Positions 14,749 to 27,674 of a stretch of DNA of 64,000 bases are shown here, piece by piece. Both the position numbers and the translations under genes were made by a program. The stretch spans positions 1,028,077 through 1,092,076 of the forward strand of contig NZ_CM001436.1 of the NCBI RefSeq assembly GCF_000243255.1. The letters run 5' to 3'. The notes under the pieces are model-generated. The model was not told the DNA's origin. It saw nothing but the letters and a program-made list of their open reading frames with translations, and did no database searches. Origin of the DNA: Methanoplanus limicola DSM 2279 (lineage in GTDB: Archaea > Halobacteriota > Methanomicrobia > Methanomicrobiales > Methanomicrobiaceae). Each line of letters starts with the position of its first letter. The first letter of the stretch is position 1.

Positions 14749-15267
14749 ATAAATACACCATATGTTTATAAAATCCTCTCTAAAAATAGGATTCAACCGG
14801 AGATAAATTCTATTGTACATAATAATTATCCGGAGTTCAGCATCAGGGACTGTCAGAACTGTAAACATAATTACAATCAGGCAATTTTAAAAAAAACAGG
14901 AGCCAACAATCATTTTTCCGGGCAGTAATTAAAAAACAGAATTAATGATATTAACCGAACATTGACATACATAAAAGAATATCAAAATGGATTATCCAAA
15001 CCATATAATATACAATATACAAAATTACAGATCAATAATGAATAATCGGCCAATATAACCACAATATTGAAAACAAAGCCAATATTAAAATTAAAATCAT
15101 CATTAAGACCTATAGAGAGGATTAAAAAAAGAAGAAGTAGAGATAATTAATTATAATTACAATAACAATAAGAAAATAGTTACCAAACAGTTAATAGAGA
15201 TATTTTATAAATAATAACTGATTGGAATAGTTCAGTTATTCCTCACATGATAACTCGGGATTTTTAA
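14749..15267. other. 519-base very AT-rich divergent spacer
   Basis: No convincing ORF. It contains two copies of GCCAATAT (15049-15056 and 15078-15085), 29 bases apart, with the palindrome CAATATTG at 15062-15069 between them. The TATA/operator arrangement at 15204-15240 serves the downstream TPR gene. Confidence 0.5.
15204..15240 (+). promoter_or_regulatory. TATA box and overlapping inverted repeat before the TPR gene
   Basis: TTTATAAATA at 15204-15213 is a strong archaeal TATA match. Immediately after it, AATAACTGA (15213-15221) and TCAGTTATT (15232-15240) form a perfect 9-bp inverted repeat with a 10-base gap, covering the expected transcription start. This looks like a repressor operator. 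Confidence 0.5.
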
Positions 15268-25096: not shown

Positions 25097-25302
25097 AAAA
25101 CCTGAACTGTCAGATTCGGTCTTAGTCACCACTGCCGGAAATATCGGGGCAGGCAGACTAAATATTGGTTTTCAGTTCAGAAATTATCGCCCGCTCGGAG
25201 CGATTTAGTGAAATAATATTTCTTTTATTAAATCAGACGGAAAGAATAGCCAAACAAAAATTATTCATAAATACTTTTTATAACGGTAAAGCAGACTACT
25301 TA

Positions 25303-25336
25303 TCCGGCCATATCCCCAACAGAAAATATGGCCGGA
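25303..25336 (+). promoter_or_regulatory. Leader hairpin before the 24-codon ORF
   Basis: Perfect 11-bp stem TCCGGCCATAT/ATATGGCCGGA with a 12-base loop, ending 29 bases before the ATG. It would lie close to the 5' end of a transcript started from the TATA-like CATAAATA/TTTTATAA at 25266-25283. Confidence 0.6.
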
Positions 25337-25365
25337 GTAAATATAATAAGAGGAGAGGTTTACTG

Positions 25366-25440
25366 ATGTTTGACTGGGCGACATTTCTAAGTTTAATTGC
25401 AGAGATTCTAAAAATTATTGCAGAAAGCGGCTTATTTTAA
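25366..25440 (+). CDS. Candidate 24-residue small protein
   Basis: MFDWATFLSLI followed by AEILKIIAESGLF. It is preceded at 25348-25359 by AAGAGGAGAGGT, a strong match to the archaeal ribosome binding site seven bases before the ATG. The peptide is mostly hydrophobic with acidic D3, E13 and E20 and basic K16, consistent with one amphipathic or membrane-surface helix. The frame is open upstream to 25165, but that longer product has no start signal. The ORF sits between a strong leader hairpin and a 3' hairpin. It could be a small membrane peptide, a leader peptide, or part of a structured RNA. A TATA-like AAATATAATA at 25339 would instead give a leaderless message. Confidence 0.5.
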   Translation: MFDWATFLSLIAEILKIIAESGLF

Positions 25441-25497
25441 TAAGCCTGAAATTAATTCTGATTATCTCCATACATTTTTATGCCGGAGATTTCACCC

Positions 25498-25515
25498 GCC
25501 GGAAAAAATTCCGGC
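25498..25515 (+). terminator. Hairpin after the 24-codon ORF
   Basis: GCCGGAA-AAAA-TTCCGGC, a perfect 7-bp stem 58 bases after the small ORF's stop and 100 bases before the next gene. Terminator or transcript-end candidate. Confidence 0.45.
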
Positions 25516-25615
25516 AACTATCCCATAATCACCCGGCATTTTTCAGAATTCTTTTGATCATTTATCGACAATATAAATTGCCTTTAACTGAAAACATTAT
25601 TACAACTGATTTATT

Positions 25616-27222
<1,607 letters not shown>

Positions 27223-27266
27223 GGTATTATAGCTATATCAGAATATAATCAATAAGAGGATTTGAA

Positions 27267-27674
27267 ATGACAATAAAATTAGGATTCGTAGTTGCGGAAT
27301 TCAACCGCGACCTTACATATATGATGGAGATCGAGGGAGAGGAGCACGCAAAGTTCCTCGGTGCTGAGATCGTTGACAGAATTTACGTACCCGGAGCATA
27401 TGACATGCCCCTTGCAATCAAAAAACTCCTCAAAGACGACAATATAGATGCTGTTGTGACAATCGGATGCGTCATTGAAGGTGCAACAAGCCACGATGAA
27501 ATTGTGGTCCAGCATGCGGCAAGGAAGATAATCGATCTCTCACTTGAATATGACAAACCTGTAGCACTCGGAATTTCAGGTCCGGGCATGACAAGGCTTG
27601 AGGCAACACAGAGAATCGACTACGCAAAGCGTGCCGTTGAATCTGCAATAAAGCTCGTACAGAGACTTAAATAA
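27267..27674 (+). CDS. ribH: 6,7-dimethyl-8-ribityllumazine synthase RibH
   Basis: 135 residues, normal length. It makes the substrate of Rib[40 protein letters not shown] and [12 protein letters not shown] cover the active site. A ribosome binding site (AGAGGA) precedes the ATG. A T7 run at 27683-27689 follows, which may end the ribC-ribH transcript before the next gene. Confidence 0.95.

Follow-up and report, generated by a model that had tools for sequence, protein, structure and literature searches.

A 24-codon open reading frame (ORF) in an intergenic spacer of Methanoplanus limicola (25366..25440, + strand; peptide MFDWATFLSLIAEILKIIAESGLF) is very likely a translated gene, and it appears to belong to a previously undescribed family, termed MFDW, which is restricted, as far as searched, to the Methanomicrobiales. 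All positions refer to the window, by which we mean the whole stretch of 64,000 nucleotides that was analysed. Homology, coding nature, a conserved start and ribosome-binding site (RBS) and independence from any one neighbouring gene were established by comparison with the genomes of relatives. The best explanation of the whole, to which we give a probability of roughly 0.4, would be an independent MFDW gene encoding a 24-residue membrane helix which serves as an accessory modulator. What emerges is a gene for a small protein that has no Pfam or NCBIfam model; it came to light through its sequence alone, and natural variants of it exist in seven genera or more. Should the peptide act at the membrane, it would be a further regulator or toxin in a group of organisms responsible for much of the biological methane on Earth.

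Organization of the locus

The sequence-only reading had described TATA-like sequences, a leader hairpin, an RBS, the 24-codon ORF and a 3' hairpin as too well arranged for an ordinary spacer. The parts are all present where it had placed them, but the arrangement is unremarkable because, in the 7.8 kb of spacer surveyed for comparable small ORFs within the window, five intergenic sites carry an ORF that starts with ATG, is 18-45 codons long and has a Shine-Dalgarno core of 4 nt. The co-occurrence of hairpins, RBS and ORF alone is weak evidence for a gene; it is conservation, not layout, that appears decisive in raising the small ORF above chance. A very hydrophobic spacer ORF of 23 codons elsewhere in the window (MMILILILALFSILWLYWPIIHY; 15032-15103, minus strand) had no convincing homologue in six relatives.

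The small gene begins, on the + strand, with a probable archaeal TATA-box region, read from the sequence as the AT-rich elements CATAAATAC and CTTTTTATAAC (25264..25284), which is 81% identical in the sister species (G001, presumably M. endosymbiosus) compared with 63-69% at fourfold sites. The Methanoregula orthologues carry an ATAAATA-like element at a comparable location, and transcription of the small gene is predicted to start at about 25293-25306. Near this predicted 5' end lies a leader hairpin (25303..25336, + strand) with a 12-nt loop, in which TCCGGCCATAT (25303-25313) is joined to ATATGGCCGGA (25326-25336) by a stem of 11 perfect pairs. The RBS AAGAGGAGAGGT (25348..25359, + strand) sits in a region (25337-25365) that is 97% identical in the sister species, and the f5 copies have GGAGGTGA at the matching position. 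A 7-bp hairpin spanning the stop codon, GGCTTAT-TTTA-ATAAGCC (25429..25446, + strand), is an additional part that had gone unmentioned. A scan for bacterial promoters and terminators gave nothing above shuffles, as expected of bacterial models in an archaeal host. A longer frame of 91 codons starting with TTG (25165-25440) was considered as the gene and ruled out, the corresponding Methanolacinia frame having a stop just upstream of the ATG.

Extent of the MFDW family

A search for homologues of the 24 residues had been proposed as a check, and among 100 relatives matches at E up to 1 were obtained in only seven genomes besides the window: three of Methanolacinia (g3), the sister species and three of Methanoregula (g18), all of them short ORFs with the same start and preceded by a Shine-Dalgarno site. 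Reading the spacer 5' of the same downstream aminotransferase gene across the window's own family added G002 (MFDWLGFAIMLLKFITENWDSLTGLF) and G008 (MFDWLGLIIMILKFVSENLDSIAALF), and a profile search and a pattern search over the class (232 genomes) brought in further members from g12, g18 and g40, whilst a reversed control pattern gave 0 matches in the same genomes. Pooling the residue, spacer-reading, profile and pattern searches, there are 27 intact copies, distributed over 26 Methanomicrobiales genomes and at least seven genera, and all have a Shine-Dalgarno site 4-10 nt before the start. The members are ORFs of 24-27 codons in which ATG, TTG or CTG is followed by F-D-W and then by a hydrophobic helix; nearly all thus begin (M/L)FDW, and the sole exception to W4 is a Q in the sister species. 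Profiles built from the own-family copies and from those of f4/f5 match each other (E 2e-12).

The MFDW profile, run on 393 genomes sampled from the phylum, found nothing outside the Methanomicrobiales, and of ten stretches matching the DNA pattern in about 85,000 species, nine lie in this order. The tenth, in Bordetella, is inside a longer open frame and was taken as chance; viral matches to the DNA pattern likewise lie inside longer open frames, and the phage and plasmid collections held no match to the family. No Pfam or NCBIfam family scored above cut-off for the peptide, and a search of solved structures returned designed helical proteins only (E 0.5 or worse). Within the order the distribution appears patchy and non-universal.

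Evidence for translation

The ORF, its start position, its RBS and its amino-acid sequence are conserved across genera, which bears out the suggestion of an unannotated small protein. The strongest signal comes from 14 Methanoregula orthologues, which are under purifying selection (pS 0.57, pN 0.087): variation is greatest at third codon positions and almost nil at second ones, and the DNA around these ORFs has diverged. A synonymous/nonsynonymous comparison of this kind had also been proposed; its result is strong in Methanoregula but weak in the closest pair, M. limicola and its sister species, in which purifying selection is slight (pN 0.25) and the ORF is 72% identical, near the neutral value of 63-69% at fourfold sites of the flanking genes.

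Of the 27 intact copies, 11 start with ATG, 13 with CTG and 3 with TTG. In six of the CTG copies there is no ATG, GTG or TTG upstream before the preceding in-frame stop, so that CTG is the only plausible start in these copies. Ribosome profiling in Methanosarcina mazei assigned CTG starts to 5% of unannotated small ORFs (PMC11456600), and these resemble the MFDW genes in being very short and intergenic, in a methanogen, with CTG as the start of some; however, they belong to a different order, and MFDW has no homologue outside the Methanomicrobiales in the phylum sample. A CTG start apparently kept across many species of one archaeal lineage bears on start-codon choice in archaea.

Properties of the peptide and decayed copies

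All members of the family except one are strongly hydrophobic, and the peptide is probably a membrane helix, as judged from its composition, with a plausible polar strip at residues 3, 9, 13, 16 and 20. The amphipathic pattern noted in the earlier description is moderate: the window peptide has a hydrophobic moment of 0.47 (P 0.026), but in the family-averaged columns amphipathicity is not significant (P about 0.11). The peptide of the sister species is much less hydrophobic (W4Q, L10R, I14K, I17Q), and this large loss of hydrophobicity suggests a relaxed or altered function there.

Several copies have decayed. A second copy in G041 is without RBS and start, that of G173 has a frameshift, that of G179 has TGA at W4, and that of G197 (L055 / L086) has lost its stop and gained 12 residues (RSGKPGQKISRF). 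These losses show the MFDW gene to be dispensable, a property which fits a toxin and an accessory modulator alike. The inverted repeat around the old stop in G197 (TGCCC...GGGCA) is still present. Genus g12 (L065, L066, L081, L082, L085) has decayed copies with an altered start and no Shine-Dalgarno site, whose flanks and downstream extension (...NNIRSCLIP) are alike between genomes, and in G070 some 400 bp separate an intact copy from a remnant.

A possible role at the membrane

In the reading we prefer, 25264-25446 is a self-contained gene, comprising promoter, leader, RBS and ORF, whose product may form a single hydrophobic helix with the polar strip at residues 3, 9, 13, 16 and 20 and associate with the cytoplasmic membrane. 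There it might dock on a membrane protein, using the near-invariant F-D-W start and the conserved region at L15 as contacts. Translation may be limited to a modest level, in some lineages through leader structure and in others through the CTG start. The model for such a role is MtrI of Methanosarcina mazei, a standalone regulatory protein of 68 residues which is bound to the Mtr methyltransferase membrane complex; its Cys40 binds cobalt, and reports of it are confined to Methanosarcinales (PMC12774963). A modulator is favoured because the restriction to one order, the non-universality within it, the varying context and the strict F-D-W start resemble the MtrI pattern; both are standalone small genes of methanogens, found in one order but not universally there, in contexts that vary between genera. 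The two differ in that MtrI is longer, has Cys40 and belongs to the Methanosarcinales, whereas the MFDW peptides have no cysteine and their docking is conjectural. A modulator, rather than a toxin or some other role, is accordingly a tentative choice, and we infer that MFDW is a new family of accessory micropeptides at the membrane for which the modulator role is somewhat likelier than that of a toxin.

The alternative that survives best is a peptide like the type I toxins, of which TisB of E. coli is the nearest parallel. It would insert into the membrane, collapse ion gradients and bring on dormancy, and its restraint would come either from an antisense RNA or from leader structure together with a weak start codon. 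We regard this as unlikely, though not to be dismissed. Such toxins are short hydrophobic peptides of the membrane; the MFDW peptides are hydrophobic by composition, and their membrane location is a prediction. Patchy presence and repeated decay are in keeping with a toxin. To our knowledge archaea have yet to yield a demonstrated type I toxin-antitoxin system. The fuller proposal of an archaeal counterpart, in the form of a micropeptide that depolarises the membrane, is controlled through its start codon and leader, and has been patchily distributed and repeatedly inactivated, is distinctly doubtful. TisB itself is a hydrophobic helix of 29 residues with a polar strip, and structure in its 5' UTR limits its expression; the MFDW peptides are similar in kind in size, hydrophobicity and polar strip (PMC8309996). 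Aligned with TisB, the Methanoregula peptides outscore shuffles (P 0.003-0.004, the comparison having been prompted by the likeness itself), and BLASTP of TisB against a Methanoregula peptide gave E 0.002 as a single comparison, but the window peptide does not score against TisB (P 0.28) and the Pfam and NCBIfam searches gave the MFDW peptide no TisB match at E up to 10. The likeness is thus a weak one, picked post hoc and absent for the window peptide. Moreover, no antisense RNA was identified when the opposite strand was read by eye, and a start as strict as F-D-W seems more than membrane insertion would need.

Genomic context

In the genera of the window's family that carry it (g1, g2, g3 and g8) the small ORF always precedes, in the same orientation, an aminotransferase gene (PF00266), which in the window is found at 25616-26746 on the same strand. 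Elsewhere the context differs. In most Methanoregula genomes the MFDW ORF lies between a same-strand gene for Thg1 (tRNA-His guanylyltransferase) and a convergent tRNA-ligase gene, probably that for isoleucyl-tRNA synthetase; the next gene is convergent in most f5 loci, and the remaining copies occupy other, unrelated genomic places. The fixed upstream position on the same strand that an attenuator would have is thus seen in four own-family genera but not across the MFDW family. Because the context varies and the neighbours are convergent, the comparison argues that the MFDW ORF is transcribed as a unit by itself rather than acting as an attenuator.

This evidence also bears on the suggestion of a leader peptide, that is, a cis-acting upstream ORF that controls the aminotransferase gene. 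The invariable order in g1, g2, g3 and g8 is what such an element would produce, but the downstream gene in Methanoregula is convergent and unrelated, other copies lie elsewhere, the aminotransferase has a TATA-like element of its own (25568-25577) and its orthologues in g4-g7, g9, G013 and G019 are without the small ORF; control of this kind is improbable. The hairpin GCCGGAA-AAAA-TTCCGGC (7 bp, 25498-25515), between the small ORF and the aminotransferase gene, had been assigned to the 3' end of the small unit, and although it is present and kept in the sister species, it lies inside a conserved block running into the aminotransferase gene and is at most a putative part of the small gene. The spacer before that gene (25480-25615) is 87% identical in the sister species, above neutral, and contains a motif, TAAATTGCCTTT, which recurs upstream of the same aminotransferase gene in Methanolacinia; it is probably the aminotransferase promoter region. 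Further along the window, two adjacent genes (26761-27674) both match the lumazine synthase family PF00885, one of them probably encoding an archaeal-type riboflavin synthase.

Bacteria use small hydrophobic helices as exported antimicrobial or signalling peptides, and an MFDW peptide exported without a classical leader sequence could be imagined from two related f5 loci (L039, L058) in which the ORF adjoins an ABC-2 exporter. As there are only two such loci, the exporter is convergent and the other loci have no transporter, we consider export highly improbable.

RNA structure

The leader of the window folds with an energy of -17.5 kcal/mol (z -4.3 against dinucleotide shuffles), and the hairpin is 89% identical in the sister species. 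It is strong in the sister species too (z -2.9), weaker in G008 (-1.6) and absent in G002, whilst Methanolacinia (g3) has unrelated hairpins at its position (-2.1, -2.4); the leader hairpin is thus not conserved across genera, whereas the ORF persists. That the locus is a structured RNA with an incidental ORF, as the sequence-only reading had allowed, is hardly credible. Between M. limicola and its sister species the leader has indeed changed less than the ORF, but in the comparison of genera it is the ORF that remains, its changes being mostly synonymous, whereas the leader varies in both sequence and fold: outside the genus the hairpin is replaced by another (Methanolacinia) or is weak or absent. 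Rfam has no match at the locus. Leader pairing that would mask the Shine-Dalgarno site seemed plausible by eye but was set aside, as in f5/f4 it is barely above shuffles (z about 2.2).

The stop-codon hairpin recurs more often than the leader hairpin, with counterparts of different sequence in the sister species, G008 and most Methanoregula copies, and could be a 3'-end element. Its summed energy gives z 7.5, an upper bound as related copies are treated as independent, and counting the pairs that span the stop across copies gives z 2.6, a value that, like the other statistics across copies, carries no phylogenetic correction. Two Methanoregula loci (L061 and L083) have a dyad, GTGCTAATGATTAGCAC or similar, some 40-50 nt before the start codon and near the predicted transcription start, which could be an operator or an RNA hairpin.
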